A DNA stretch of 64,000 nt from Boletus sp. NGJ (taxonomy: Eukaryota > Basidiomycota > Agaricomycetes > Boletales > Boletaceae): contig JAGTXK010000136.1 in assembly GCA_019096195.1 (NCBI GenBank), positions 434,001-498,000 of the forward strand, in the 5' to 3' direction. Below are positions 381 through 46,197 of the stretch, piece by piece. How positions within the stretch are numbered: position 1 is the first letter of the stretch; each line of letters starts with the position of its first letter. The position numbers and the translations under genes are program-made. Under the pieces are notes generated by a model, which was given only the letters and a program-made list of their open reading frames with translations, did not search any database and had not been told where the DNA came from.

Positions 381-395
381 CTACCCCCTCTTTAG
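381..395 (-). other. Polypurine tract of gypsy-1
   Basis: The minus strand reads CTAAAGAGGGGGTAG immediately before the LTR start TGTTATAATA. This is the expected place and composition for the plus-strand primer of an LTR retrotransposon. Confidence 0.8.
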
Positions 396-3300
396 GACTT
401 GAATTCCAGGCGAGTTGTTGTTTTTTCATTTTCAGTAAAGTCATAGGGAGTAAATAAAGAAGCGAATGCTGTGATAGACAATCCATGTAGCTTGTGTGGA
501 GTGGAAGGGTTTAGACGATGGAAATCTTTAACTGCATCTGGTGCAGTAGTTGTGATGTCTTCTGATTTCCATGTGCAATCAGTTTCATCGTACCCCTTCC
601 AATGCACTAAATATTCAAGTTTGCCTTTTTTTAATCGAGAGGTGGCAATAAAATCTACTTCGAATTGCTCTTCTTCATCTTCATCAATCTCAATCGCATC
701 TGGTCAAGATTTAGGCTGACTGGGCAGTGTATCTCTATAAGGTTTGATGCAAGAGATGTTCACAGTTGGATGAATGTGAATAGAATTGGGAAGTTTGAGC
801 ATCACAGCATTTGGAAGGACTCTTGTGATTGTGTAAGGTCCAATCCATTTTTGTGTTAATTTTCTCGCCATATAGGGAAGTTTTAATTTATCTGTAGATA
901 GCCAGACTTGCTGACCAATAGAATATTCCGGTGCATTTGATCGTTTTTTGTTGGAAGAGGTGATCATCCTCTTATGTGTAGCTTCCAATGCTTCTTCAAT
1001 CTCCTTGTGATTGCAACCAATCTTGTCTGCAAAGCTGGTGAGAGTTCCTTCGAAACCCATACGTGGCACATAGTTTCTTGTGACTTTGAAAGGCATCTCG
1101 CCAGTTGCCATTGTGACGGTATTGTTATGTGAGAATTGCGCAAGTTTTAGCCAATCTACCCAATCATTCTGCTTCTTTCCAGCATATGCGTGGAGATATT
1201 GTTCTAGATCTCTGTTTACGTGCTCTGTTTGTCTGTCCATTTGCGGATGATATGCTGTGGAAATCTTTTGTTTAATCCTGAGTAGCTTACAAAGCTCTTG
1301 GATAAACACAGATACAAATTGGGGTCCTCGATTGGATACGAGGGTAGAGGGGAGTCCATGTGTAGACCAGACATGGTCTCTAAATAAAATAGCTAGGTCC
1401 TTTGAAGAACAAGTATCATATGTAGGTATAAATATGACTTCTTTAGAGAATCAATCAACAACAACACAAATAGCAGTGAATGAATGTGATGGTGGTAAAC
1501 CTGTTATGAAGTCTACCAATAAATCTTCCCATGGTCTTTTTGCCGCAGGTAGAGGGATAACTTTTCCTGCTGGTGCATTTTGTTTACCCTTTGTGAGGGC
1601 GCACACTTGGCAGTGATCTACATATTCTTTTACGTTCTTTGTGACTCCTGGCCATGAGAAATAATGAGAAAGTGTATGTATAGTTTTTGAGTGTCTGCCA
1701 TGTCCTGCAATAGGCAAATCATGATATAAGGTTATGAGTTCTGTATGTAATGGTTCAGGAATGAATATTTTGTCTTTTTCATTTTTAAATATATTTAGTT
1801 TTGAGTAAAAGAGAAAATTGTTTATAGCATCTATGTTGTATTTTTTGGATTCTTCTTGGATTTTTGTGAAAAAGTCTGAAGATAGGGAAACATTGTTTAT
1901 AAAGATAGAAGGGGGGAGGACAGTAACATTTTGATTATGATCTATCACTGCGTCACCATGATCAGGTCGTCGGGATAGAGCATCAGCTCTTCCATTTGAG
2001 GATCCTGGTTTGTAGACAAAGAAATAGTTAAATTCTTGGAGTAAAGCATGCCAGCATGCTTGACAACCACTGAGTGTTTGTGGTTTCTTCCAGTATTCCA
2101 AGTTTTTATGATTGGTCCAGATTTCAAATCTTTCTCAACCTATTAAATAGTGTTGCCATTCTTCTAGGGCGCGGATTACTGCTAGTAATTCCTTGTCGTA
2201 TATTGGGTAGTTGCACTCTGTGCTGTCGAACGAATGTGAGATAAAGGCGATAGGTCGCCAATTACCATCTTTGCATAATGTTGAGAGCACAGCTCCCATT
2301 GCAATGTCTGACACATTGGTTTCCATGCATACTTCTTGATCACAGTTAGGATATGCGAGAAGTGGCACTTCCGTAAATTTTCTTTTTAATGAGTTGAAAG
2401 CTTCTTGTTATGTGGGGCCCCATTTGAAAGGAATGTCCTTTTTTGTTAGATCATTCAGGGATCTTGCAATTTGGGCAAAACCTTCGATGAACCTTCTATA
2501 ATAATTGCATAGTCCGAGGAATCCCTGGAGTTGCTTTAGTCATGTAGGTACTGGCCAATCCATGACCCCTGCTACTTTTTTTGACTGCATCTCTACCCCC
2601 TCTTTAGATACAACCATTCCTAGGAAGTCCACTTTGTCAGCAGAGAAGGTACACTTTTTAGGTTTTACATAAAGGTCATTTTCACGTAACCAACATAAAA
2701 CTTCCTTCATAACTTCTTCGTGCTGCTCTTTGGACTTCCCAGAAGTAAATATCATGACGTTGTCGATGTAGATAACAACTACTGCATACATGTCATTAAA
2801 TATATCATTCATCATTGTTTGGAAAGTAGGAGGAGAGTTTGTTAGTCCAAAGTACATTACCATAGGTTCATATGCCCTGATAGGAGTTACAAACGCTGCT
2901 TTTCATTCATCGCCTTCTTTGATACGTACGTTATTGTAGCTCCATCAAAGGTCCATGGCTGTGAACATATCTGCATTTTTGAGCCTGTCAATTAATTGCG
3001 GGATTAAAGGAAGTGGATAGGAATTTTTTATAGTTCCTTCGTTTAAATAATGGTAATCCATTACCATTTGTTTTTTACTGTCTTTTTTCAGAATAAAGAA
3101 TACTGGAGATGTTTGCGGAGATTTGGAAGGTTTGACATATCCTTTTTTGACTTCCTTTTCAATAAACGCCCTGACTTCTCCCATTTCCACATCCAAAAGG
3201 AGAATAACATGTCCTTTTTTCAGGGTGAAGTCTTCTTTCAGATCTATGGCATGATCCCAGTGTTTTTTTGCAGGCATTCGTTGTGATTCTTGTTCCAATA

Positions 3301-4060
3301 AAACATCTAGAAACTCATGATAAGTTAAAGGTACTTTTTCTTTTAGTCCTTTTTCTATAATATGAAGGTTTACTGGTTCATAAGAAGATGATGGTCTAAG
3401 TCCCATAACTTTACAGTAGGATGTACATCATGGAAAGGAGATCATCTGTTTTATCCAATCGATATCAGGATTATGGCAGTAAAGCCAGTCATACCCAATG
3501 ATCATTTGATGGGTTCCCAGTTTAGAAATGTATGCATCAATAACTTCATAATGTCCTTGTACTTCCATGATCAGGGTTACTGTGTGACAAATCAGTCCAA
3601 TAGCTCCTTCCAATCCGTCAGCGTTATGTATTTTGATTGGGTTTCCAATATCATAAAAAGGGATACCATGATGGTTAACATAATCTTGATCAATGAACGT
3701 ATATGATGCTGCTCCCAAGTCCAAGAGGGATTTGAACCAGTAACACAACCACTGTCTGTTAACATTGCATGATATTACAGTGTCAAGAGAGAATTCTTCA
3801 CCATATGATAATGTCAATGCTTGGTTTAACATGACTCAAGTGGGTTTATAAATACGTGATATTTTTTGTTGTTTTGTAAGGGAATTGAGTACACTTAAAT
3901 CCAGTGCCATGCTTGATTGAGATGCCCTTGCGGATTCTATCAATAGTTTACATAAAACAGAGGAAAGATCAGAAATGGGAAAATTGTCATCTGTACAGTT
4001 TACTAAAGAAGAAAAAGAAGATTGTTCTTGCTGCTGAGTTCTCTCGTTACTCATTGGCAT
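392..4060 (-). pseudogene. gypsy-1 pol: protease, RT, RNase H, integrase, chromodomain
   Basis: A single minus-strand frame of about 1,220 codons runs from ATG at 4060 to the stop at 392 with no frameshift. In order it shows an aspartic protease (DLGA near 3715), reverse transcriptase (YIDN box near 2770), RNase H (2380-2100), an integrase with a His/Cys finger and core (1800-900), and a chromodomain (650-450, containing EYLVHWKGYDETDCTWKSED). It is interrupted by nine in-frame stops at 3836, 3428, 2945, 2903, 2540, 2408, 2135, 1451 and 704. Seven are TGA where CGA (Arg) fits the family, one is TAA where CAA (Gln) fits, and one is TGA where TGG (Trp) fits. Chromodomain integrases target insertion to heterochromatin. 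The pol start overlaps the gag stop as ATGA (4051-4054). Confidence 0.93.
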
Positions 4061-5226
4061 TGTCCATTTAAAGCCTGGGCTGCTCTGGCTTTCACTTCAA
4101 CTTCAAAATTGTCCCTATAATATGCCTCTGCTTCCTCTGAGATATAGGACCTTGATGCTGTGCTTGGTGCTGTTGCAACGACAGGAGGAGATGGTAAGGG
4201 TCGTGCTGAGTAGTGTTGGCAGGAGTGTGATTGATCAAAAAACGATGGATACTCATTTTCTCCATGTTGTGGCTCTTCATATGAGCCTAGATCCTAGTTC
4301 CATACTTGCCTTTGTTGGGGCAGGCGACCAGTTCTTTTAAACAGATTGGTGAGGCAATTGGGCTTGATGTGGCCTGATTTTCCACAATGGAAGCACGTCC
4401 TTGTGTCTTTTGATGGTCCAGCCTACTGGACACTGATTTCCATTGGAGCACCATGCCCTGGTTGTATGTCTGTTGCTGTGAATTGTGGTGGATGATATGA
4501 TTGCTGTGGGGGTTGCCCATGGGGAGGAGGGAAGGACAATTGGGGTGCAAAACATAAGGTGTTGACAGGTGGTCCACACTCTATCACCATCTGCTCAAAT
4601 GCTCTTCCAATGATTCTGTAATTCAACACTGAATCTTTGTAATTGTAAGTTTGTGCTGGGTTGCTCAAACACGATCTCTTGTAGATTCGAAAGTCTATGG
4701 CTTTTTTGAGGAGGATGGCAGCATGGTGGTCATCTATGTGCGCCTCTTTTTGTAGCACCTCAAATTTTTGCAAAAACTGATCCATGGGATGCCCATTTTG
4801 TTTTAAAGCCTCTAATTTTTTGAGAGACTCATGGGTAAGCATGTTGATACAGAAGTGTGTGCAGATCTGATCCTGCAGCTTCTTCCATGTCGGCCATGTA
4901 TCAGCTCCTTTTGCTAGTAGCATGTTTCCTTGTGCGTTCATTTCAATGGTGGCTTCTTCATCGAGGTAGTATTCCATCAATAATTGTGAGAAGCCTTCTG
5001 CTTTTCCTTCAAGCCGAGACAGGACGGTGATATCTAGGATCTTATCATGTTTCCATGTTTGAGTGTCAACCCAGAGACACAATTTTATCCACAAAACATG
5101 GAAGGTGGAGTGGTTGCCGTCCCATTTACTGGAATCGGCAATCTTTTTTATGATGCTTTCCTTGTCTCGCTCTTGTGTGAGATTGGTGAGTTTTTTGACG
5201 AGGTCGTCTATATCCACTTGAGACAT
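4051..5226 (-). pseudogene. gypsy-1 gag with CCHC zinc knuckle
   Basis: The minus-strand frame opens at ATG 5226 (MSQVDIDDLVKKLTN) and reaches TGA at 4051-4053, about 391 codons. Two in-frame TAG codons break it, at 4423-4425 and 4294-4296; both fit Gln (CAG) turned to stop by C-to-T. The capsid-like region lies at 5220-4450. A CCHC zinc knuckle (CFHCGKSGHIKPNC) is encoded at 4354-4395, between the two stops, so premature termination would remove the nucleic-acid-binding part. There is no frameshift. Gag would normally form the virus-like particle and package element RNA. Confidence 0.88.
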
Positions 5227-5575
5227 ATTTGATTACTGGTTTGAGGAGAGAGAGTGGACAAAGGTAAGAGCGGTGGATTGTGATGCGATAGAGGGCAAAA
5301 GCGAATGAAGGATGAAGTGGTCTTTGCTTGTCTGGATTTGCCATATAGGTCTTTCTTGGTTGGTTTTCTTTCAGAACCTTACTACCCAATAGCTTACAAT
5401 CAGGTTCTGGGGTTCCTACGTAGGAGTCAAAGTAGAGATCATTGAAAATGATGGGCAATTGTGCAGGGGGAACCGAAGAATAACTGTCATACTTTAGACA
5501 GGTGTTGCATAGGGGAGAGGTGGGATAAATCCCCTTATCACAACTGTGTGATGTCACAGGTAATCATACAAACCT

Positions 5576-5596
5576 GAGTTCACTATCGTAGAACCA
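5576..5596 (-). other. Putative primer-binding site of gypsy-1
   Basis: On the minus strand, five bases after the LTR end, the sequence reads TGGTTCTACGATAGTGAACT. It starts with TGG as expected for pairing to a tRNA 3'-CCA end. The same motif with few changes recurs beside the gypsy-2 LTR at 32947-32967, which supports functional conservation. The tRNA species was not identified. Confidence 0.6.
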
Positions 5597-5601
5597 ATAT
5601 A

Positions 5602-6290
5602 TGCTTGAATCAGCACCTACTCAAAAAAGGGGGCTAGTGCACTATGCCCAGTAGCAACTTTATCCTTATTTATAATGCCGGACGAGTATATATGCAAGTA
5701 TTTCACCGAGTACTTTACTCGTCACCGTCAAGTGGTGAAACCTCAAGATGTTCCTTAACGCTGGGTCTGTGTATGTCTCCTTAGCTCTGGAGTCCGAGTG
5801 TTGTGTATGACAGTCTAATCCAAGTGTTATGAATCCTTTCAGAACCAAACTACAAGGCTCGACAATCTCGCAGGTTACATGTATCCTGGCTTAACGAATA
5901 AGGTGGGGAGTCACATCCATACTATGCTAGCCCTACAATGACCAGAGTGGTCAAGGCAATGAGCTATTAGAGCAGAATACAAGTGGATTAGACTGGGGAT
6001 TCCAGTCGTCAAAGTTCTACTTTATATATGTACAGGGATTGTGCACAGACCAAGCTATGCGTGTGATAAATTACTACATATGATAAGACGGAGATTAAAG
6101 GGGCTGTGAGAGAAGCATGGAAATTAATAAGTCATGGATCACATGAGGTATGATGTCATATGACATCATTGATTCTAGACCTAGTCATGTGATTGTTCCC
6201 ACAGTCACGTGACTTTGATAAGAAAAAGATTGATGAAAATGAAAAGTAAGTGTTGAGGTGAAAAGTTTGAAATTATTGTATATTATAACA
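5602..6290 (-). repeat. 5' LTR of gypsy-1 (689 bp)
   Basis: The LTR starts with TG on the minus strand at 6290 and ends with CA at 5602. Its 6290-5911 part is duplicated at 380-1. It should carry the element promoter and polyadenylation signals; a TATATATG stretch lies near 6022. The inner boundary at 5602 is inferred from the primer-binding site and the TG..CA rule. Confidence 0.85.
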
Positions 6291-6700
6291 GTGTACTGTG
6301 GAGGTAGAAAGGGGTTGGTTGACCACATTGGTGAGAGCCTTGGTCACCTGGACAGCATTTTCTGCCTTTCCAGATGAAATAAGATGGATGGCATGACAAA
6401 GATTGATAGGAGAAAGCTTGGATGGGCAACCTCCAGCAGACTTCTGAAGCTCAGAACGCTCTTTGGAGCGGAGCCTGGATATGGTAGAAGCATGGAGACC
6501 AGTGGTGGCAGCAATAGAATAAGCTGACTGGCCAGTATCAAGCATAGAGAGAATGGTGTTTTTCTGAGTAGAAGAGATGGATTTTATAATGATGTGGTTG
6601 GAAATAAAGAAGTGTGTGAACTATTTCAAACTCAGACAAAATATTTGTATGTGTATCTTTGTTTGTATAACCAAACATTGCCACTTATGATGATATTTCA
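6291..6700 (-). pseudogene. Tc1/mariner transposase 5' fragment, split by gypsy-1
   Basis: On the minus strand from about 6545 a frame encodes an N-terminal helix-turn-helix region (AYSIAATTGLHASTISRLRS) followed by GGCPSKLSPINLCHAIHLI. This is the paired-like DNA-binding part of Tc1 transposases. The frame runs straight into the gypsy-1 LTR at 6290, so the catalytic half lies beyond the left edge of the window or is lost. The upstream flank (6600-6665), with its 'acaaagatacacata' motif, is shared with a deleted relative at 59.95 kb, which marks the end region of this family. There is no intact product. Confidence 0.8.
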
Positions 6701-6874
6701 ACAAGATTGCACATTCTCTACTAAAAGGTGCAAAACTGTTGCAATGGTATTGCTGTTTTGAAATAGACATAACTCCACAGCCTCTGATCCAATCACATCA
6801 TCTAGAGGCCAGATTGTAGCCAAGAGTGTGTACTTTGTTTGTTCCCACCAAAGCAAAGTGTAATTCACACGGGT

Positions 6875-7350
6875 GTTTGTGGTGCACTGCACACACCACA
6901 TCAAGGTTAGACATTGCAACAGTTTTGGAGGTCACCGTATGTGCATAAGATCAAGCTTCCACCTCTCTCTCCACCTGATCCCATACCAGTATATAATGTT
7001 GATGGAACATATAATGCCACCAGATCTATCACCCATTATGCCAAGATTATTATTCATTCAGAATCATTGCAAACAAGTCAGAACAGAAGTAACTGGTCTA
7101 GAAAAAAATCAGATAATTCTAGAATACACATAGCTTAGTAAAATAACCCTGAGATTGATTGGACTTTTGGAAAAGTCCAAATAATTCTATGTCTCTGGAC
7201 TTGTCAGATTCTAAAAGGAAAATCTACTTTTGCATGCCAGATTGAATCTGAGGAGCATAACACCCTGGCTCATATTTTTGCTATGAAGCATGATGAACCT
7301 ATCATGAAGAAAGCTAAAACTTATTTCAAAACAGTACCATAAGCATATGA
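6875..7350 (+). pseudogene. Ty3/gypsy protease remnant
   Basis: Plus-strand pieces in alternating frames resemble the middle and end of a gypsy aspartic protease. YNVDGTYNATRSITHYA is encoded at 6990-7050, then VTGLEKNQIILEYT near 7090-7133, then a decayed WLxxxNPEIDW-like stretch at 7135-7190. The family motif order (VYNVDGT, then VTxLGxxxxILGxxWL) is recognisable, but frameshifts and stops break it. No LTR or flanking gag/RT was seen, so this is an isolated scrap. Confidence 0.6.
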
Positions 7351-8424
7351 GTGTATTCTTCAAGAAAAGTTAGAATGAATTATGCATCCATCCCTACTTA
7401 ACCAAACCATGCTCAGCATTTCGACCAAGACCAATCATATGATGAATTTTCAACCCGATTTTGCTTTCTTCTAGCAAAACTGAAGACAAAACCCAATGTG
7501 ACATGCATGTTTCGACACAGGGCAGAGAAAACTACCAGAGTGAAAATGATGTGCTTCTTACCACTCTATTCCCCCTTAAGCTCTAATACCATCTTACACA
7601 TGGGCCAACCTGGATTTACGTGATCTCATTTGTCTTTATCTATAACAAACCATCTCCACTTGGGCGCCATCAATGCAACTTGCCCCCTCTCTGCCTTCTT
7701 ACCTTCCAGTCAGTTGCCCTCCTTATTTTTGTGACCACACACTAATAGCAACACCACAGCTTTTTACACATTTCAATCCACAATCACAGCATTTTCAATA
7801 TGCATATTTCCATTCTCAGCACCACCCCTTCTGGATGCCTGCTTGCAGCCAGTTTCCACAGTCAAGAACATGAGCTGCTCCTATGAGAGAAAGACCATAT
7901 TTTTAATTATATTTTTGCCAATCACTCTTTTGAGACCATAGGAGTAATTCAAAACTGCTGCAGTCCAATTCTAGGCGTTGATCTTAATATAGCCATTGCC
8001 TTTGCCAAAGTCATCATCATTGCCTTCTTTCCTGCTATACACCACTGCATCATAGACAAGCTAGGCAAGCTCAATTTGTCCAGACACACAATCATCAATA
8101 TCTCGGGTGCCTCCTTAGCACCCAATTCAATACAAAAGATTTGTGCACAAACCCTCCTCCAGACCAGCACGATGCTGTTCAAGTGTAGTTGGCTCGATGG
8201 GAAGGTGCATGTTAGCAGCATAGTGAAGCATACAATCAGTATAACCTTCCACCGTCCACCACCCTCCATTCATTTTTTTGGAAAAATTTGCCAAAATGCT
8301 TTCTTTATCTCTTACTTTCTAACTGCTCATTTTATATTTTCATTTTTATTGTCGTATACATAAAATCTCAACCAGATCACTCTTTAAATAAAAAGTTCTT
8401 GGACCTGAGTAATTGTTTGAATTC

Positions 8425-8545
8425 AAAGAACCATCCTCATTTTGACTAAGAAGTCCTAAAGCCTGTCACTCAGCTGGCATGACATGAGATAAGAAGCAGC
8501 AAATTTGAACAAGCTGTTCATGTGGTTGACGGAAGATTGATGCTG
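8425..8545 (+). repeat. Dispersed direct repeat, copy 1
   Basis: The core 'gataagaagcagcaaattt' followed by 'gaacaagc' and 'ttcatgtggttg' recurs at 12253-12298 in the same orientation, with weaker similarity extending about 60 bp to the left. The spacing is about 3.8 kb. Confidence 0.7.
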
Positions 8546-11500
8546 TGCTCATAATCTATTAAGATCTTAATGCCTCTTGTCACTGCCATAACTGGTTGAA
8601 TGCATGTGTGAATGGCTCCCATCCCTTGGAACGATCTAAATTTAGCACGCTCTCTTGCCTAATCTCCCACTCTAGTAGATGACGGATGTACTGTTTCTGA
8701 CTGGAGGAGTGCCCAGCTTTAAAACAACTTTCCAGCACTAAAACAGCAGATTTGTGGCCTAATAAAATCAAGAGCCAGGATGTGTGGGCTATTGGGTGCT
8801 TGTCTGCTGCCCAAAGGAGGTCGGTCCATTTCCAATAGATGAGAATACAAATCACATAGATTCTTGAGAAAGGCTGTTAGATTGCCCCTGACCTATTATT
8901 GGAATGGATATTTCTAATGCCTCTCAAAAATATCCGTAACTGTATCTGGACCATTGTGAATATTGATGGAGTTCAATGCCTTATGTTCATTGATAGCCCA
9001 TGCCCCTGCTTAGCTGACAACACCACCAAGTCACTACCCAAACATTGGTTTACTAATCTTATCCCCAAAAGCATAGATGATCTTGAAAATTTGATGAAGA
9101 TATCTGCACCATCCTAATCAGCAGTCAAATCAGCTAGAAGCAAGACACAAAGAAGGCCATCTTTCCCCTATCCAAGTTTCTAACAGCGCCTGAGCCTCGG
9201 TATGAACCATTTTCCTCATCTCACCATGCCTTCCTAATGATAGATACATAGAATTGAATTTTTGAACCAGAATCTCCATTAAATAGCCAAGATCCAATGA
9301 TGCTTTACCTGTTAATCATGGGCACGAATCAAAAACTAGCAGCATTGCCATTGACACCGGGAGAAATAGCAAATGTGGATAGACAATAGCAATGCCCTAA
9401 CTAAGTGGCACATTCAAATGAATGCATGTTGCCCAATCAAACACATAAACTCAGATAGCATTTAGTGACACAAAAATTCAGATATGTAATATTGTAATTT
9501 TACAAAAAATCACCTTAGAAACTGCGAGAGAAAGTATGTCCAACAAAATAATCAAGAAAAATATCAACCAATTCTCCACCATCACACAACCATAGTCTCC
9601 AAAAGATTTATGAGAAAATAAATCCTTCAAATCCTCCACCCAATCCATTGCCTTCTACTCCATCCTCTGACCAACAAAGGTTTGAACAAACTCAGCATCA
9701 TCTTGTATATGTCAAATTTCTCCCAAAACTACTGTGTGGGGTGATTCCACATTAGCACCTCTCCTTCAAACATCCTGATGGCCGACTTATCATCAGCAGC
9801 AGGGATATTGAAGTTGGTGTCAGTGCACATCGCTTGAAAGACTGGGAGTAGTTAACCCAAGAGAAGGGCATATTGAGGGAGTATTGGAGGTCCAGCACTT
9901 TCACCATGAAGTTCTGCTCTATGAAAGCACAATCAGGAGCATTTCCAAGGTGCTCTAAAAAAGAGAGCAAGCCTTCCCATTCATACAGTCAGAGCAGTGG
10001 CCCAACAGTGTTGGAATTGAGCATGTAGATCACCAAAAAAAATGTTTTCATGCTGGTGAAATGCAAGTTGGAAAGAAAGATGGATGGAGGTGGTTCATCC
10101 TACAGATGATATCCGTTCCCAGTGTTGCTATTCAGGTTGGACATCAGTGTCAAAAGGTAAAGCGATGAGAGTGTTTATGGTCAAATAGACTGCCTAGGAT
10201 TATTTTGGCAGGGACCATAGATCTTTCATGAAAAAAGGTAGAGATATAGGCTGGGCTCCTTATGGCAGCATAGTAAGAACATGCTTCACATTCTTATTCT
10301 ATGTGTTCTTTTATCCCAATAGAAAAACAGCATCTTTCAAAGAAGAAGTGGCCGTGAGGATCAAATGTCAAGAATGTCACCTACCACTACTTGGAGAAGG
10401 GTCATCATAATGCCAAATATGTTGAGGTAGCAACTGGATATTACCATGGAAGAAATGATCTTTCCAAAATGAAGGGTTCATACAAGACGTGATTGCCAAC
10501 ACCCCTGTAATGGATGTTCATTGCGGACAAAAGGACACATTAAGAAGATGATCTGTCCTTTACAATTATTATCTACATACATCAATTGTCCAGACTCATC
10601 ATGTATCCTCTCTCACTAAGCTCATGAAAGAGCTGCCCCAATGCCTCCCTCCTGTTGTGCTAATACAGATATTGATAGATAAACTCTTCCTTCTCCTTCC
10701 ATAGTGATTTCAATAAATCTGCATTGACAATGTATGCATCTCGCCTAATGAGCATGTGCTTGAGCAATGCCCTAGCCACACTACCACCTCTATTAAATCT
10801 GCATTGTCCGAGATAAGTGAGACATGGTGAGTGCAAGCACTTAATGACTTTTCTCAACAGGATTGATTTCTTGACCAAGAATCTGCTCCCAAGTTATGGC
10901 TTTTGAATGCATGCAATGGTGAAGGTGATATTGGAACAGTGGGTGAATGCAGAGAGCTTGTTGGGCATTCATATCAGATAGAAACTCCCCCTAAAATCAA
11001 ATCTCCTAATTTATAATGGGCTTGGCATGACAGCATTTGTACTGAAGGTGAGCAGGGAGAATGAGATACAATGACAAGACCTCTCTAAGTGTTTATATGT
11101 GATGAACAGTGACCACCAGAAAACTAGAACAATTAGAGCAACTAGCACAATTAGAATTCTATGAAGGGAAAAACACCATCTCATGTTCACCATTTCTCAA
11201 AATCATCTACAAATAGAATAATGACAGACCAAAAATGCAATGCTTTGTAATGCATCAAGAGATGTCTGCTGCCCCTGAATATTGAAAAATTCACTCATGT
11301 CAGACCCCCTCTTTGCAATATTATCACTTTGGGTATTTAAAGGCAGAAAGCTTTACTTAGTCTATCAACCAAGCCATCCCAGCAGACTCACTTACCCATA
11401 TGTCCTCATATTTAAAACACCCATGTGAGCAGTCATTATGATGTCAAAACCACTCTGTCACTATATCTGGTGTTTTCCATCACAGAAGCTGTGCTGAATC

Positions 11501-12177
11501 ATACCTCAACCATTGTTCTTCCCATCCTCTGTTCAAATCTATATTTGACCTTGATACAATACATCCTTATCAACCCCAAGCAATTTGTCAACATGTTGAT
11601 GCTTAGAGGGCATTTTTTTACAACCAGTATTGAGCTTTTAATGGACCAAGACAAGTGGCCCAGCTCAATCAATGATACCAACCACATGCTCACTTAGCTA
11701 AATATGAACATCTCCCTTCTTGATATTCTCCAAGATTTGTTACCATGCTTCACAAATTTCTCAGAATCAGCTGAAGAAGTACAGTTATGTTTTTGGGGGA
11801 AGGCAGACACTCAATTGGTGGCCTGAAACAGTGCATTAACAAAGGCAGGCAAGAGGAAACTAAAAAAAGATAACACATGGTTTGTGCAAGAGGAAATTCC
11901 AAGTGCTTGACAGGAGGGCATGACTAAGCTTTTTACAGAAGTAAGGTCAAGGGTGCAGGGGAATAATTAAATAATAAAAATGTGCTCCTGTGTACAATGC
12001 TAACAGTTAAATATCCCTTATGAGCATCCATGTGCTGTTTTTTATTTTGCTACAATCTATAGAAAAATTGTATCCTATTGTCTGCAATCTTTTCACTTTT
12101 ACCCTTGTTTTGTAAGGACTAAGCTGAATTGGAACCCCTTCTCGCCAAATAGAATTTTCCTTAATGTCTCAAATTTA

Positions 12178-12302
12178 CTTGAGTTCAAAGGGCTGCCTGC
12201 TCTTACTTCAGCTGAGAAGTCTGTGGACCCATAACTCAGCTGACAATGTCACAAGATAAGAAGCAGCAAATTTGAACAAGCAATTCATGTGGTTGCCAGA
12301 AG
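12178..12302 (+). repeat. Dispersed direct repeat, copy 2
   Basis: This is the second copy of the repeat at 8425-8545. A further similar pair lies just downstream of both: 'agctgacaacaccaccaagtc' at 9011 and 'agctggcaatgccaccaggtc' at 12362. The two copies therefore belong to a longer diverged duplication. Confidence 0.65.
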
Positions 12303-13126
12303 TCCATACGACACATTTAGTTGTCCTATTGCAGGAATGGCCTTTCTAATTGCATTTGCTCAGCTGGCAATGCCACCAGGTCATCACCCAAACATCTGCT
12401 CAACACTCACTCAATATGGTGCACCTTCTATAAGTCAGCTGCATGTCCAGGCCTCACCTTTCCCTTATAGTCCATACACTTTTCACCACAATAAGACCAT
12501 CTGACTACTTATTGTCCAATGAGATGACTATGGTGGAGTCCTCACCAGGGACGGCATCAGGCTTGTAAAGCGCATTCCAAGTAAAGTCATAAATCTCCTG
12601 CTACTTGCCATAGCCAGGAATCTCATGCGTGATGTGCTTGGCAAAGCCCAAGATCTGCCTCTTGAGCATACTGGCCGTGGTGGGAGAAGCCTCATAGTGC
12701 TTGATGTTGTAATCATAACAGAGAATGTTGAAGAGCACCTTTTCGAGTGCAGCCTTCATTCTGGTCGTAATCACATCTGACCATGATGGTGTGGCTGTTG
12801 TCAATAGATGTAGCCTGCATAGGGGGAATGCTGACAGCAAAAGAGGACATTCTGCTGGGGTATTGCAGTTAGTGGATGCAAAATGGCAGAAAAGAGGACC
12901 AAGTTTACCTGCTAATGTTTGTTCAGTTGGTAAGTCCAAGGAGGTGTTTTGTTGAATGCACTTACTGGAGTGAGGCTGTTAGTGCTGGGAAAGGTGATCG
13001 GCAGAGAGTCATCTTTTATATAGATGGGGAACAAGACATTACAGTATATGTGATCTGAAGTACTGTATGCCAGCTGAATCTTGAATGTGATCCTTTGACT
13101 GTGAGGTGTCTCAACTATCTGATTCT

Positions 13127-13604
13127 TAGTACTGAAGCAGATCTTCTCCAGCACTTCAATCAGCACTTCAACATCCCAAAGCACCATGCTTACACTCTCC
13201 TAGACAATGTGGCTGAGAAAGCCAACCTCCCCGACCATTCCCTCTCCCTCACAATAGCCTGAAAGCACCAGGAAATTCTTGATGGCCTCTCGGCCTTTTA
13301 TAGTCCAACGGAGCCTGCTGTAGTGGACCTGTTCTGCAAAGTGCGCCACACCTACAAGCTCCGGGAGTGCCTTCTTGGTCAGGTTGGCTGCTATAATGGA
13401 TCCTTGGAACTCGCTGGTGATATAGACAATAACTTCGAGTTTCACATGTATCTCATACAGATGAAGTTGCACCACCCTGACCACCTCCATTTGTTCAAGG
13501 CACCCAAGACAATGGTGTCCTACATCACCAATGCTGAAAGCCTTCTTCCATGGGACAACCAGTTCAGCTTCTCCTACAGTTTCAATGAGTGTGGTTGGGT
13601 TTAA
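13127..13604 (+). pseudogene. Unrecognised coding remnant upstream of YR element
   Basis: A plus-strand frame of about 155 codons is open except for one TGA near 13258, in a place where CGA would fit. It contains FCKVRHTYKLRECLLGQVG and ends in SFSYSFNECGW just before the terminal repeat of the tyrosine-recombinase element. Codon use and length suggest real ancestral coding sequence, but I recognise no family. It appears to be cut at its 3' end by the insertion at 13605. Confidence 0.45.
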
Positions 13605-13929
13605 TTGGGTTTAAACTCAGTTTATACAAGGCTAATTGGACAATGCCACTATCATGTGCACCATGCCTTTGCCAGTCCCTCATAAGCACACCCACTAGCC
13701 ATACAACTATGATTGGAGGGTCCCTGCTTATTTTTTTGACTGATCAGTGTATTGTGATCAGATTCCTCACCAGTGCCACATCATTGTGGCAAAAAGCCCC
13801 TCTTTCCAAACTCTGATTTAAATGCTGACTAGCAAGCCACTGACAGCACTCCTCCAGTTTGGATTCAACTCTTCTTGCTTTTGTTCTCAGAGTCCTCTTG
13901 TTTGCTTGCTAGCCACTGCCTTTGCTTTA
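13605..13929 (+). repeat. YR element terminal block A (325 bp)
   Basis: The block begins TTGGGTTTAAACTCAG and ends at GCTTTA (13929). It matches the reverse complement of 19115-19439 over the same 325-bp length, with only a few mismatches (for example around 13699 and 13737-13752). Confidence 0.9.
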
Positions 13930-13960
13930 ATTCAGTCACATCTGTTCCCATCATTTCCTC

Positions 13961-14965
13961 ATGTCTCAGAATGCATCCTCCTCCACACAAACCACCTCTT
14001 CTCACTCGGTTAGACAAGGAGAATCAGCCTACACCATCCCAGAAGGGTTTCCCACAGCCTCTGTGCAGTCAGCACTTGGAGTTGTCAGACAATACAGGAA
14101 GCGAGAGGTCTCCAAGGGTGAAGCATCCTCCACATCCAGACAGCCCTCACTTCTGGAGAGATGAACCCTCCAAAGACGACCTCACCAGTGCCCTCACCAC
14201 CTACATCACCATGCTTGATGACCTCGACCAGTCTGCTCGACAGAATCAGCCCCAGGGAGCTCCAGGCAGTTCAACCACCAGTAGAGCCCCTATCCCAGCC
14301 AACCCTTCTTCGACCATTGTTCAGCCGGGGAGAGGAGAGAATGACAATGAAGTCGACCTCTCTGATGTCTCATCAAATGCTGGACAAGAGAAAGGACACC
14401 ACATCATCGACTCAGAGTCTGAGGAGAGGGAGAAAGGGTCATCCAAGCGCCACAGAGCCTCTGTCAATGAGGATCTCTTCCCTTGGAAGGGAACCTCTGC
14501 AGTCCTTCGAGCTGGGCTCGAGCCCGAGGTGCAGCAGTGTCTCGACCTCCTTGAGGACTGGGCAACAGACCCCACCTATGTGGTCAGAAAGATCCTGCTC
14601 TCACCTGGATGCCCAACCAGTGGCTCAACATTGTCAAGGGGTTTGCAGTCGACCTTGCCAAGGTCCTGATATCGAGACTAAGCAGAGCCAGGATGTTGGA
14701 GACCTCTTCCAGATCTCAGTTCGAGTCCCCAAGCAATCCAAGGCCATCGGGTTGCATGGGGACTGAGTCATTGCATTCCGCAAGACCATCCAAGCGATCT
14801 CACTTTCACCCTGCCAGGCTGCCTCCATCTCCCCCTCATTCCACTCCAGGGTCATTTGACCTCGACAAGGCCATCAGACTCCGAGCTGCCAATCAAAAGC
14901 ACCTTCGCCTCTCTGATTTTGCACGGTTTGAGGACCTCAGAACCAATATATCTCACCTCATTTGA
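13961..14965 (+). pseudogene. YR element gag-like ORF1
   Basis: The ORF starts at ATG 13961 (MSQNASSSTQTTSSHSV), a Ser/Thr-rich beginning just after block A. The frame shifts between about 14100 and 14165 into one encoding DEPSKDDLTSALTTYITMLD and an acidic, Arg/Ser-rich stretch (SESEEREKGSSKRHRAS). It shifts again near 14610 into QWLNIVKGFAVDLAKVLISR and AIRLRAANQKHLRLSDFARF, and stops at 14963. At least two frameshifts separate three consistent pieces. The position before RT suggests a capsid or nucleic-acid-binding role. No zinc knuckle is visible. Confidence 0.6.
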
Positions 14966-15089
14966 TATGGGTCCGAGTCCCGGAGAGGGAGGACAGGGCG
15001 GGAAGAGAGCCCTGCCATAACTGGAATAGAGGCACCTGTCACAAGCAAGCCTCTGAATGCTCCTACTCTCATGACTGCAATCGCAACAA

Positions 15090-16654
15090 GTGCAGAGGAG
15101 CTCAGTAGGGGTCAGAAGTTCAGGAGACACTTTGTGTGGGACCCAGCTGCAGCTGTCAGGAGCAGGACAGTGCGCTGGACTCAGCTTGCTTGAGCCCTTA
15201 CCATCTCCTCCGGCTACTGAATTTAACAATCTCGAGGCTTTGTCTACTATCCAGAACCATCCTGATCTGTTTCGTATTGTCACTCCTATTCATGTGGACC
15301 GCTTTCACTCACTCCTTTCATCCAATCCCAATGTGTCAGGGATTGCGCCAGGGTTTTTGGCCCTTTGCCAATACCCATTATGGGGATTGGCCTCTCACAT
15401 GGGACAACTCCCAGCGCGCTCGCAAACACCAGAGGAGGCAGCATTTCTGCAAGAACAGATTGATAAAGAAGTTGCACTTGGTCGCTATTCAGAGTCCTTT
15501 GGTGCAGATCTCCTTCCAGGGATGTACAGCATGCCAATTCATGCAGTCCCCAAGCCTGGGGCCAACAAACATCGACTTGTCACTGATCACAGTGTTGGTC
15601 AGTTCACTCTCAACAACATGATCTCGCGCGAGGACATTACTGGGGTTACTCTGGATAATGTCCAAGATTTGGGGAATGTCAGGATCCCAATGTCGACCTC
15701 ATCCTGTGGAAGGCCGATGTTTCTGAAGCATACAGGCGAATGCCCATGCATCCACTGTGGCAGATCAAGCAACGCTATGTGGATCGCTGTAATGTCTTTG
15801 GAGGGCGTGCCTCGCAGCGCATTTGGCAGGCTTTCGTGTCCCTTGTCACCTGGATTGCTGTCATGAAGTATCTCATCCACTATCTCTATGTTTATGTCGA
15901 CGACTCCTTCTCTGCTCAGAAGAGAGGCGAGATGCTCTTCTACAAGGGCTATCAGAAACAACTCCCTTCTCACCTTACCCACCTACTCCAGCTCTGGGAT
16001 TTCATTGGACTGCCTCATGAAGAGCGAAAGCAGGTCTTCGGAGACGAGTTGCCCATCATTGGTTTTGATGTCCATCCAAACCTCATGAGAGTACGCATTT
16101 GAGAGGAGTCTAAGCTCCAGCTCATCACAACTGTTCGAGATTTTGCTCTGCATGGCACGAGACGTCCTTTGAGAGATTTCCAGCGCATTGCTGGCCATCT
16201 CAACTGGGCACTCAATGTGTATCCTCTTCTTCGCCCTGGTCTCTGTGCCCTCTATTCCAAGACAGCGGGCAAGCTGTTCCAGAAGGCACTTCTATGGGTG
16301 AACCGGGATCTTGAGAGGGAGTTGACTTGGATGGTCGATCATCTTATTCATTCAGATGGAATCTACTTCCTTCGGTCTGTTGCCTGGTCGTTCGATGACC
16401 ACTCACCTTCCATCCTTCGTATGTATTGTGATGCCTCTCCATTCGGTTTGGGCTTCTGGTACCCATCATTCAGGCTAGCATTCCCTGCACCAGCCCATGA
16501 CATCTTCGCCCAACATAGAGGATCTATCTTTTATCTCAAGTCTCTGTGTGTCTGTGCAGCCATACTTGATGCAGCACCTCATCTTATAGATGCTTGGTCC
16601 ATAGAGTGCCTCCTTGTTGAGCGCTCGATTGCTCTTGGCTGTCCTCTTGACTGA
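15090..16654 (+). pseudogene. YR element reverse transcriptase-RNase H
   Basis: Pieces in two frames together give a reverse transcriptase. An N-terminal region is at 15210-15480. HAVPKPGANKHRLVTDHSVG is at 15540-15600, then an ADVSEAYRRMPMHPLWQIKQ stretch near 15710-15775, a GGRASQRIWQAF motif near 15800-15830, and the catalytic YVYVDDSF box near 15890-15910. RNase H follows at 16169-16654 (RMYCDASPFGLGFWYP near 16420). Frameshifts occur near 15660 and 15780. A TGA at 16100 separates RT from the RNase H part. The YVDD catalytic box itself is intact in its frame. Confidence 0.82.
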
Positions 16655-16680
16655 TCCACTCAAGCAGTCTACTCATCAGC

Positions 16681-17517
16681 TCTGAATTCCTATCTCACCT
16701 TCTGCCAACTCCATCATCTTGACCCAGATCCTACTGCCAACACCTTGTCCCTATATGCTACCTTCATGTCCCATCACATTGAGCCACACTCTGTTCGTGC
16801 CTACCTGGCCGGCATTATATCCGAACTCAAGTCAACCTTTCCATCTGTTTGCTCCAATAGATATTCTCCCCTGGTTGTGCACACACTCAAAGGTTCTCTG
16901 TGCTGTTTCTCTCGTCCTATGCACCAGAAAGCACCCCTCACTCAAGATGATCTCATCTAGCCTCTGTCCCATGACAGATTGCTGTTCCTCACCCTGCTCC
17001 TTGTGGACTTCTTTGGTCTGTTGTGCTTAGGGAGCTTGTCCAGCCTGACAGCTCACATCTTCGCTCACTCTCCAAGATCTCCTGGAGACATGATGTCCAT
17101 CTGGACTCCACCTCCATCACCTTCTTCATTCCTCAGTCCAAGAGTTGATGATCTCTTTGAAGGTGATCAGGTGATCATTCAAAAGAGCACTTCTGTTCCT
17201 GATCCACACTGCATTTTTTGCCAGTATATTGTATCTCATAATGTCTTGTTCCCATTGTTTCCTCAGTTATGGGTCTGTTCTGATGGTTCTGTGCCTTCTC
17301 GCTCCTGGTTTATGTCTAGGTTACATCGCTTGGGGTCATTCAATGCATGCTGGTGGTGCCACATTACTTGCTGCTGCAGGTGTCCCCCCTCCCAAATTCA
17401 AGCTATTGGAAGGTGGAAATTTGAGTGCTATATTCGTCGCCATCCTACACTCTTGCAGGCTGTTCTTTTTCATGGTCAGTCCATTTATGACCCACCATTT
17501 GCTAATATATTATAGTG
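16681..17517 (+). pseudogene. YR element tyrosine recombinase
   Basis: The N-terminal core-binding part is at 16690-16955 (HSVRAYLAGIISELKSTFPS). The catalytic part is at 16975-17515, in shifting frames. LRELVQPDSSHLRSLSKISW near 17025-17085 carries the first Arg. GHSMHAGGATLLAAAG near 17335-17383 is the HxxR box with Arg replaced by His. YIRRHPTLLQAVLFHG near 17430-17475 carries the nucleophilic Tyr. Such enzymes integrate circular cDNA by site-specific recombination. At least two frameshifts and the Arg-to-His change (CGT to CAT) make this copy inactive. Confidence 0.78.
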
Positions 17518-17599
17518 TGCTTTTACCTCGCCACTCTCCCCATCAATAACTCATTCCTACACTACCTTTTCCCTCCCTTCCCTCCCTTCCTACACTGCC

Positions 17600-17744
17600 T
17601 TTTCCCTCCCTTCCCTCCCTTTCAACACTGTTTATAGTATTCCTCATGGCTTTGTCCTGTATGTGTCAACTTGACTCCAATGTCATCCTGGGGTAGACTA
17701 TTCTACCTCGGCTTTGCTGGCTTCTCGTCCTAGTGCCCCTCTAA
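17600..17744 (+). repeat. YR element terminal block B
   Basis: After a CCCTCCCTT-rich stretch, the sequence from 'tttgtcctgtatgtgtcaa' to 'gtgcccctctaa' matches the reverse complement of 18978-19115. Homology stops abruptly at 17744, which gives the likely 3' end of the element. Confidence 0.8.
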
Positions 17745-18977
17745 GGGTAGGGCTTGGCTGAGGGTTTGTTGTATCACTTGGTGATCTTATTGGCCCTCTC
17801 CCATTGAGTCTGGAAGTGAATTGCCCACAAGTACCAGTCTTCAATGGTGGTTGGTACTGTGTCCATGGACATGACTCACCACATGAAACCTGAAGGGATG
17901 TCCGCTGAGCAGTACCTGATGAGGACATTTACATAGGTTGGTGATCTTACTTAGTGAGTGAGGTGTTCTCTTCATCCTTACCCCATCATTGTTCACATTC
18001 TACCTTATCATTCCTTGCCATCCATCACATAGTGGGACTCTGTGTGATCACCCTTACCTTCTATGTTGGATACTTTTAATGCTGCTTGCGTAGGATACAC
18101 TCCTTCACCTTGTTCTTTGCTCCATAGGAACTTTCATCATCATCCTGCAGGAATTCTAAGAGTTGTTGTTCTACTCTTAAGAGAACACATCTTCTAAGTT
18201 GTGACTTTATTCTCTGAAATGAACTCATAACCATGACAAGGAAGACCCTTTGTCATTGAATTCTTAATCCTATCCCAGCAATCTCTTGTCTCATAGCCTT
18301 TGTCACCACCTTGATACAGCTAGTAGCTAGTGGCTACTAGCCACATCCAAGTTAATGCCTACTCCTACCCAGGGTAGTTATAACAAAAGGTGTAAATTCT
18401 TCTCAATGAGGCATTGCTGTTATAGTTCTCCACCCACCATCGCTCACCAACAATTAACCCTGAAAGCTGACTAGTGGACTTCTTGTGCACGTGTCAACAA
18501 AGGGAACACTAAGGACCAAGCAAACTCCTCAAGACACCAACCTTGACCTACCATCCCAACAATGACATGACATAGCCCTTACTTGTTTGGTCAACTTTCT
18601 GACAAACTACATTTACTGTGAACTCCAACACCACTGTCCTCTGCACCATTGACAGCAGTACCCTCATTCTCTCTTCCACCACCTCCACCATTGTCATTCC
18701 ACATGTTCTTCTTGTCTGAACACCATCAACAGCATCATCATTGCCCTTGTTTCCTTCTCCGATTTCATCACAGCCTTCAAGAAGACCTTTAAACATTGTA
18801 ACACCACTGGCACTGCTATTGCTAGGCTCTCCTCTGAGCATATGATGAAGAAATGAGACAACTCGTACCCCCCCCCCCCCCCTTACTCAGTATATGTCTA
18901 AATTCCAGAACAATGAAAAGAAAAGAAGGGGTTTTAATGGGCAGTGAGGTTTTTAAAATTGACCAATTAGACTAGCG
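17745..18977. other. Non-coding stretch between YR copies
   Basis: No gene is recognised. It contains a C15 run at 18868-18882 and a short palindromic patch near 18322-18345 (tagctagtggctactagcca). The only longer frame (minus 18548-18841, 97 aa) has no recognisable motif. Confidence 0.5.
18868..18882. repeat. Poly-C homopolymer (15 nt)
   Basis: There are fifteen consecutive C residues. The length is likely to be unstable or prone to assembly error. Confidence 0.95.
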
Positions 18978-19439
18978 TTAGAGGGGCACCAGGATGAGAA
19001 GCCAGCAAAGTCAAGGTAGTATAGTCTACCTCAGGATGACATTAGAGTCAAGTGGACACATACAGGGACGAAGCCACTAGAAACACTAGGCAACAAGGGA
19101 AGGGAGGGAAGGGGTAAAGCAAAGGCAGTGGCTAGCAAGCAAACAAGAGGACTCTGAGAACAAAAGCAAGAAGAGTTGAATCCAAACTGGAGGAGTGCTG
19201 TCAGTGGCTTGCTAGTCAGCATTTAAATCAGAGTTTGGAAAGAGGGGCTTTTTGCCACAATGATGTGGCACTGGTGAGGAATCTGATCACAATGGTGTGA
19301 TCAGTTGAAAAAATAAGCAGGGACCCTCCAACCATAGTGGTATGGCTAGTGGGTGTGCTTATGAGGGACTGGCAAAGGCATGGTGCACATGATAGTGGCA
19401 TTGTCCAATTAGCCTTGTATAAACTGAGTTTAAACCCAA
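18978..19439 (-). mobile_element. Joined A+B terminal blocks of YR element (inverted)
   Basis: The reverse complement reads block A (19439-19115) followed directly by block B (19115-18978), with the whole coding part missing. This is either a solo terminal-repeat remnant or an internally deleted, non-autonomous copy, in inverse orientation to the element at 13.6-17.7 kb. At 19439 it abuts the truncated end of an old Tc1 element. Confidence 0.8.
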
Positions 19440-30366: not shown

Positions 30367-31384
30367 ATGAAACCCATTTCCATCTCTCAAAAAAACAATA
30401 TCATCTCTCTCTCCTCTCATGGGCTTTCCTCTAGGAAAATCTCTGCACAAACTGGCCTAGGGAAGTCTACAGTATGCCAAGTGCTTCAGGAACTCCAGCC
30501 AGAGAAGACCAGGCTTCTTGGTGGCTGCCCTTCCAAGCTTACCTCTACCAACAAAAGAGCTACTGTCCAGCAAATTATTACTGGCAAGGCCAGGAATGCT
30601 GTTCATGCTGCCCAATACATCAATACCATTATTGATACCCCTGTCTGTCCTCAGACTGTTAGAAATACTCTCAAGGAAGCCTCCTTAAAGGCTGTGGTAA
30701 AGAAGAAAAAGCCACTGCTTTCTAGTGGTCACAAGAAAAGAAGATTAGCCTTTGCTCTCAAGTACCAGCATTGGACTGTGGAGGACTGGAAGAGAGTTAT
30801 ATGGTCAGATGAGACCAAGATCAATAGGATTGGGTCAGATGGGCAAGAGTATGTGTGGAAAAAGAATGGAGAGGGGCTAATTGCTAGAGAGGTCCAAGGC
30901 ACAGTCAAGTTTGGAGGAGGTTCACTGATGGTATGGGGCTGCATAGGGTGGAATGGAGTGGGGATTTTGAGTGAGGTGGAGGGGAGAATGGATGCTGAAC
31001 AGTATGTGGCCATATTGGAGCAGGGGTTGCTGCAAAGCATGGAGGAGTCTGGAATTCCAGAAGATGACATTATCTTTCAACAAGATAATGATCCCAAGCA
31101 TACCTCTAAAAGAGCCCAAAGATGGCTTGAAGAGCAAGGAATCAAGCTTCTGGACTGGCCTGCACAATCTCCAGACCTTAATCCCATTGAACATACTTGC
31201 AATCACCTCAAGAGATGCCTCTCAGGTTATGAAAATGCTCCTACAGGTGCTTCATCAATTGTGGGAAAGAGTAGTGGAGCAGTGGGGAAAGATTGATGAG
31301 GAACAGTGTCAGAAATGGATAGAAAGTATGCCTAGAAGGATTGAAGCAGTTATCAAGGCCAAAGGAGCTCATACCAAGTACTAG
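30367..31384 (+). pseudogene. Tc1-A transposase with one frameshift
   Basis: ATG at 30367 opens MKPISISQKNNIISLSSHG. Two helix-turn-helix regions follow (RKISAQTGLGKSTVCQVLQE and CPQTVRNTLKEASLKAVVKK, with a KKKKP basic patch). The DD34E catalytic set is complete: Asp in WSDETKINRI, Asp in IFQQDNDPKHTSKRA, Glu in PDLNPIEH. The open frame runs to 31296, but from about 31250 the family sequence continues in the next frame (WERVVEQWGKIDEEQ) to VIKAKGAHTKY and TAG at 31382. One extra base near 31250 explains this. The enzyme would cut and paste the element at TA targets. Because the lesion lies after the DDE core, some activity cannot be excluded. Confidence 0.9.
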
Positions 31385-45049: not shown

Positions 45050-46197
45050 GTAATGCCATTCGGCCTGACCAATGCCCCTATGGCTTTCCAACAGTTTGTC
45101 AACACCATCTTTGCAGATCTTCAAGATGTTAGTGTTATCATCTACTTGGACAACATCCTGGTCTTCTCCATGGATAAAACTACTCACACAGAACATCTCC
45201 AGAAAGTCCTCTGGCAACTTCACAAATATGGCCTTTACACAAAACCCAAGAAATGCAAATGGTCCACAGACACTACCAAGTACCTCAGCTACATCATCAC
45301 ACCCTCCAGACTTACTATGTCTCTGGACAAAGTCAAAGCTATGCAGGACTGGTCAGAACCTCATAAAGTCAAGAACATCCAATCCTTCCTTGACTTCACC
45401 AACTTCTACCAGTGTTTTATTTCCAACTACTCTGACATTGTTATTCCGCTAACCCAGTTGACTCACAAAGGGACCCTCTGCTTACTAAAGGAAGCCTTTA
45501 CCACCACTCCTATCCTTACCCATTAGACTTCTAATACTCTGATGATTATAAAAACCAATGCCTTCAACTATGCTATCGCTGGGATTCTCTCCATCCATTG
45601 TCTGGATAAAGACCTCTGGCCCATCGCTTTCTTTTCATGGATGCTCACTGCTCTGGAGCTCAACTATAACATCCATGATAAGGAACTCCTTGCCATTCAC
45701 AAGTTTTCCCAGGCTTGGTATCACTACCTTGAAGGCTCTAGCACTCTGATTGACATCATCACCAATCATCAGAATCTAGAGTACTTCACAATGTTGAAAC
45801 TCCTGACCCACCAGCAAGCCTGGTGGTTGAAGTTCCTCTCCCAATTCCACATAATCATCTGCTTTCACTCTGGACACCTTGGCACAAAACCTGATGCCCT
45901 TATTAGATGCTGGGACATCCATCCCAAAGAGGGGGATAAAGACTATGCTCGCATCAACCTGCACAATTTCTGCTCTATCTTTACCCAGGAACAGCTCACT
46001 TCTTCCCTCCATGCTACCTATCTTGCAGCTCCAGTACTTCAAGCTGGCACTTTTTTCGATATAGAGCAACTTCATAGCAACATTCTATCTGCACTCCCCT
46101 CCAACCCACTTGCCAAACTACATATGTTCTCCCCTGATCCGGACTCATGCTGGGCTATTGACGAAGATGGTTTCCTTCATGTCAACAAATGCATCTA

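Follow-up and report, generated by a model that had tools for sequence, protein, structure and literature searches.

A dead Ty3/gypsy element in Boletus sp. NGJ with eleven in-frame stops and LTRs that are most likely misleadingly young

LTR divergence is the usual clock for the age of a retrotransposon. The window analysed here, a stretch of 64,000 nucleotides from Boletus sp. NGJ, begins within a gypsy-like element for which an earlier note had described two features: gag and pol frames broken by eleven stops and no frameshift, each stop explicable by a single transition, and LTRs differing at two positions only over the 380 bp visible twice. To reconcile these, the note proposed either transition hypermutation of a parent copy followed by retrotransposition of the dead template in trans, or later gene conversion between the LTRs. 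The locus thus raises the question of how an element with so many stops comes to carry such similar LTRs.

The window element is a dead Ty3/gypsy element lying on the minus strand. From LTR pairing and genome matches, its 3' LTR (in the sense of the gag strand) fills positions 1-380, which hold 380 of its 466 bp, and the remaining 86 bp lie to the left of the window (whole LTR, C97:433915-434380); the 5' LTR is complete at 5825-6290. Both LTRs are 466 bp long, start with TGTTATAATA and finish with CATAACA, as read with the left flank of the contig included. The right copy of a 5-bp target-site duplication (TSD), TACAC on the gag strand, occupies 6291-6295, with its left counterpart beyond the window edge. 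Paired LTRs with TG..CA ends and the duplication TACAC/TACAC are those of an LTR retrotransposon. The insertion hit a dispersed repeat of about 720 bp, whose right part is found at 6296-6944 and whose left 70 bp lie outside the window, left of the left LTR. Within the element, a purine-rich stretch adjoining the 3' LTR (381-393) is by its position a putative polypurine tract. The gag frame (4051-5226, minus strand) extends from 5226 to its terminal stop, at 4053, with two in-frame stops on the way (first bases 4425 and 4296). It overlaps the pol frame (392-4098, minus strand), a different frame, which runs from below 4099 to a stop at 394 with nine in-frame stops (first bases 3838, 3430, 2947, 2905, 2542, 2410, 2137, 1453 and 706).

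Four stop-free pieces of the element were scanned for domains. An Integrase_H2C2 domain was identified in pol piece 1451-2101 and a Tf2-1-like SH3 domain (SH3_Tf2-1) in pol piece 704-1309, while piece 4423-5226 gave a weak Retrotrans_gag match (22.8 bits, under the cut-off of 24.1) and pol piece 2945-3406 gave no match; reverse transcriptase (RT) and RNase H would precede the integrase. In both of these pol domains, in its 5-bp TSD and in its TG..CA LTRs, the element resembles Ty3/gypsy elements with a Tf2-1-like SH3 domain. For one pol piece, the best-ranked match bearing an organism name was an Agaricus bisporus protein, at 33%. Elsewhere in the window, the domain scan picked up other transposon remains (30367-31296, 57393-58409, 35833-36546 and 45542-46291). 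Two of the four are Tc1/mariner-like transposase frames (DDE_3, HTH_Tnp_Tc3_2), and integrase zinc-binding and RT RNase H domains mark the other two pieces. Scans of the window with Rfam and for tRNAs (bacterial setting) each gave 0 matches.

All eleven stops (two in gag, nine in pol; 8 TGA, 2 TAG and 1 TAA) were found where the earlier note had placed them, and both frames are free of frameshifts. Every stop is one transition away from a codon present in at least one of 20 relatives, which bears out the note's reading of single transitions. Recoding of TGA was considered and rejected, since TAG and TAA also occur and the relatives read sense codons at these sites save for four single stops. 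The relatives come from a family search with 34 matches, representing about 31 copies, among 31 of 180 candidates scored; 21 copies including the window copy (L009 in the comparison) were compared, and 10 others, 77-78% identical, were left out. The closest among those scored are L010 (85%), L012 (83%, partial), L011 and L029 (both 82%). The scored candidates thus include no internal copy beyond 85% identity, and in a search for the LTR, with 40 of 321 candidates scored, no other LTR listed exceeded 89%.

On a common codon grid, the 20 other copies carry 0-17 stops, the highest counts being those of L012 (17), L011 (12), L015 (11) and L016 (10). Eleven stops are normal for the family. Measured against the window copy, frameshifting indel runs number 0 in L013 and L025, 1 in L011, L017, L019, L020, L027 and L028, 2-6 in L014, L015, L016, L021, L023 and L029, and 11-16 in L010, L012, L018, L022, L024 and L026. 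The earlier expectation that ordinary decay would have produced indels holds for the nearest relative, L010, with 12 frameshifting indels against the window copy's frames, but not for the 8 of 20 other copies that have just 0-1; having no frameshift places the window copy among the lowest of the family, yet this is not unusual. In the CpG-rich copies L018, L022, L024 and L026, stops on the grid are few (0-1) and frameshifting indels against the window copy many (11-13), which is the opposite of the pattern in several old copies and possibly residual long-read error. Relative to L020, these four show 10-14 one- or two-base indels, with insertions predominating in L018 and L024.

Whether other copies share the stops, as the earlier note had asked, has a divided answer. 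Seven of the eleven are private to the window copy (against 20 copies, or 19 at the two sites where L029 has no base), and the remaining four each turn up in one other copy (L020, L027, L016 or L023), never a sister of the window copy. A second copy with the same stop set was not found among 20 of about 30 other listed copies compared codon by codon. On the copies compared, inheritance of the set from a master copy was rejected, seven stops being private and the other four scattered singly over non-sisters.

The two differences that the note had seen over the visible 380 bp of LTR are indeed there, at window positions 173/6083 and 245/6155. Counting the full left LTR, as the note had proposed, adds five further differences in the 86 bases outside the window, for a total of 7/466, all transitions. 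They are unevenly placed: two lie in the first 410 bp and the other five within the final 56 bp. The change-point test gives p = 0.005 whether the null is uniform or drawn from the pooled positions of other copies, where 17 of 160 differences lie in the tail share of the LTR. Gene conversion is expected to leave differences clustered outside a near-identical tract, and such clustering is what the window copy displays. The U5 tail, at 8.9% (5/56), is near the upper expectation of 6.8% from internal decay, and the body stands at 0.5% (2/410). When 36 other LTR rows are used to polarise the seven differences, five come out clearly as C>T or G>A, and the two at LTR positions 411 and 450 also read C>T/G>A by a weaker majority. 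Each LTR carries some of the derived bases, and the tail thus lacks the look of an imported tract. Shared derived sites are similarly dense in the LTR body (17/311) and tail (2/40), which gives conversion no support. Taken at face value, the window LTRs predict 3.7-3.8 stops against the 11 seen (probability of at least 11, 0.0015-0.002); they are too young for the stops, as the note had argued.

The family supplies three checks, namely an internal clock, TSD ageing and the host repeat split by the insertion. The clock is twice the private rate at codon position 2, set against LTR divergence with ratios taken by hand; pre-insertion changes count towards it, and the rate is higher at position 3 (0.118 vs 0.034 in L009). 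Parsing gave LTR pairs for 16 of 20 copies (L012, L014, L017 and L025 have no parsed pair, and L029 was left out), with 14 pairs of at least four differences entering the change-point test and 12 of the 16 the clock comparison. The pairs of L018, L022, L024 and L026 diverge more than the clock predicts, for which sequence error or a near-identical sister is the probable cause; since such a sister makes private counts disappear, these four do not enter the comparison. Clock and LTR divergence agree in seven of the 12 copies, with LTR/clock ratios of 0.8-1.4 (clock vs LTR, L010 4.7 vs 5.0%, L013 3.5 vs 3.8%, L015 4.0 vs 4.0%, L021 2.6 vs 3.5%, L027 3.1 vs 2.9%, L028 2.8 vs 2.3%, L020 1.0 vs 0.8%). 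They fail to agree in the other five, where the ratio is below 0.5 (L009 6.8 vs 1.5%, L016 5.4 vs 0.2%, L019 4.5 vs 1.9%, L011 5.0 vs 2.3%, L023 2.7 vs 1.2%). The window LTR pair is thus younger than the internal decay, although its 6.8% is an upper expectation since some internal change predates insertion.

Clustering of LTR differences at p < 0.02 was observed in 5 of 14 pairs. Four of these belong to failing copies (L009, p = 0.005; L011, 0.017; L019, 0.016; L023, 0.0003), and the fifth failing copy, L016, has a single LTR difference, too few for the test. Among the seven agreeing copies, six are unclustered and L028 is clustered (p = 0.002); because L028 clusters though its clock agrees, clustering alone is not a clean conversion marker. 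The more similar part of the LTR lies on the U3 side in L009, L011, L023 and L028 and on the U5 side in L019, and LTR conversion may be polarised. The TSD ages with the insertion, and LTR conversion leaves it untouched. Among the LTR-young copies, mismatches are present at 2 of 5 TSD bases in L011 and 1 of 5 in L016. These are supporting evidence only, since clock-agreeing copies have mismatches too (one each in L010 and L013, with the flanks of L020 wholly unmatched). The note's alternative of later LTR gene conversion accordingly gains support from the clustering in the window copy and sister copies and from the five copies in which internal decay has gone too far for LTRs so alike.

Two of the CpG-rich copies, L024 (C126:12600-20900) and L026 (C107:415600-423900), have different flanks and different TSDs (ATAAT and CTCCC). 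They have in common 5'/3' LTR differences at seven places and all 10 one-base indels relative to L020, and their internal regions are identical save for 20 alignment columns. This likeness is not plain retrotransposition, because retrotransposition would reset the LTRs; the more likely source is assembly of a single repeat sequence into both loci, with conversion of the whole element as the alternative. On contig C133, the element and LTR matches at about 1195-19410 reappear in mirror image on the other strand at about 88706-106921 and score the same or almost the same, which suggests that the contig contains a large inverted duplication; C35 and C79 have similar mirrored pairs.

The spectrum of change was assessed from private changes, counted at columns with at least 90% agreement among the other copies. 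The window copy has 133 such changes, including 116 transitions and 82 C>T or G>A changes (39 C>T, 43 G>A). By next-base context, these 82 divide into 34 CpG, 19 CpC, 15 CpT and 14 CpA; C-to-T change mainly at CpA, as in ascomycete-type RIP, was not found among them. As rates, CpA (0.141) is not above CpT (0.185), with CpC at 0.108. Since columns conserved in all copies leave just 5-7 CpG sites, the CpG-rich copies served as the yardstick for CpG retention. At 288 sites reading CG in those copies, the window copy retains CG at 18% and otherwise reads TG (101), CA (81), TA (3) or other dinucleotides (50), and retention is graded from 98% to 12% across copies. In the LTR pairs of six copies, discordance affects 42/170 CpG sites vs 48/1052 other C/G sites, a 5.4-fold difference. 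The change in the element is a strand-symmetric, CpG-biased C-to-T decay of DNA, which speaks against the hypermutation envisaged by the earlier note.

CpG observed/expected is 0.99-1.13 in seven host-gene loci and 0.01-0.42 in sixteen 4-kb bins of the window. The genome (32.8 Mb, 141 contigs) has five matches to the C5-methylase family PF00145 over three contigs, two of them with internal stops for which introns or decay may account. Seven reading-frame pieces were taken from the methylase loci; three match PF00145 above the cut-off, and a fourth, beside a PF00145 piece, has a weak BAH match below the cut-off. The host is an Agaricomycete, as its RPB2 piece has Hygrophoropsis aurantiaca as best named match (94%), with an entry lacking a name at 98%; this would fit a place near Boletales. 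In PMC4352252, basidiomycete transposable elements with a CpG-only signature are linked to Masc2-like Dnmt1 methylases. The present case is alike in its C-to-T change at CpG without CpA preference and in the presence of C5-methylase matches; it differs in that the basidiomycetes of that study are Microbotryum, Puccinia and Melampsora, whereas this host is an Agaricomycete with methylase matches at family level.

The host repeat provides an independent clock. All 18 other copies that were fetched run unbroken over the junction. The copy split by the element has 16 private changes in 694 sites (2.31%), and because the element cannot predate its host repeat copy, its age is capped at about 2.3% change per lineage. 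At this cap, 21.5 LTR differences are expected vs the 7 seen (P = 0.0003), and 6.5-6.8 stops vs 11, a mild excess (P = 0.066-0.082). A>G/T>C changes are found at 48/2081 sites in the element interior vs 3/391 in the host repeat (p = 0.05), an excess indicating that some change predates insertion. An age near the cap together with LTR conversion fits best. Private changes in the 18 other repeat copies number 0-2 in 11 and 5-50 in seven, and the 11 suggest a recent burst of the repeat.

Taken together, insertion, methylation-type decay and then partial LTR-LTR gene conversion make up what we regard as the probable history of the window element. A single insertion into the dispersed repeat, as seen from the TSD and the empty sites, would have been followed by loss of C to T on both strands, at CpG most, for the greater part after insertion and in part earlier in the lineage. 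Its spectrum is that of deamination of methylated CpG, with methylation the presumed cause, and such decay would yield private stops and no frameshift. Intra-element conversion, to which the clustering and the family clock point, would then have replaced approximately positions 1-410 of one LTR, counted from the U3 end, by the sequence of the other, leaving the older differences at the U5 end. The window LTRs are therefore most likely misleadingly young, one end having been copied over most of the other.

If a dead, mutated template had instead been retrotransposed in trans by the proteins of another copy, the LTRs would have been reset and most stops would be older than the insertion. Such an origin would account for the few stops predicted by the LTRs as they stand (just 3.7-3.8), and it is compatible with the intact TSD of the window copy. 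The 6.5-6.8 stops predicted at the age cap and the interior A>G/T>C excess also leave room for stops and other changes made before insertion. However, it predicts evenly spread LTR differences, and those observed cluster; no copy with the same stop set was found, the nearest among the candidates scored being 85% identical; and LTR-young copies with mismatched TSDs (L016, L011) point to conversion in the family. We consider this origin unlikely, and trans-mobilisation is not needed for the account. The more specific proposal of the earlier note, in which a parent was hypermutated before mobilisation, is not supported either, in view of the private and singly recurring stops and of the lack, among the candidates scored, of any internal copy above 85% or other LTR above 89% identity. 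A mixed history also seems rather improbable to us: some stops would already have been present in a methylation-decayed, coding-dead genomic template when it was transcribed and moved in trans, and subsequent LTR conversion would have increased the false youth.

Hypermutation in one burst, whether RIP-like or by cDNA editing, has in its favour that transitions dominate the private changes (116/133). Editing of minus-strand cDNA would, however, be strand-biased, and C>T and G>A are about equal here; moreover, CpG is favoured, CpA is not above CpT, double changes to TA are rare (3/288) and CpG retention is graded rather than bimodal, and we judge a burst very unlikely. Sequencing or assembly error as the source of the stops or of the near-identical LTRs is scarcely credible. 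Small indels as from unpolished long reads do occur in the four CpG-rich copies, but errors of this kind are indels, and the window copy has none in its frames, its changes being CpG-biased transitions; with the nearest copy at 85%, reads should also map uniquely.

Partial conversion after decay thus remains the preferred reading, and LTR-LTR gene conversion is already known. According to PMC7251063, converted regions occur in 25% of plant LTR pairs, LTR ages are underestimates, and intra-element conversion is commoner than conversion between elements. The window element is a fungal example of the same kind, sharing patches of near-identity within an LTR pair and an underestimated LTR age. It differs from that study, which treats plants with GENECONV, in belonging to a fungal family and in drawing on further clocks, namely internal decay, mismatches in TSDs and the nested host repeat. 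In 5 of the 12 copies compared, the LTRs are less than half as divergent as internal decay predicts, so LTR dating of this mushroom's elements would mislead.
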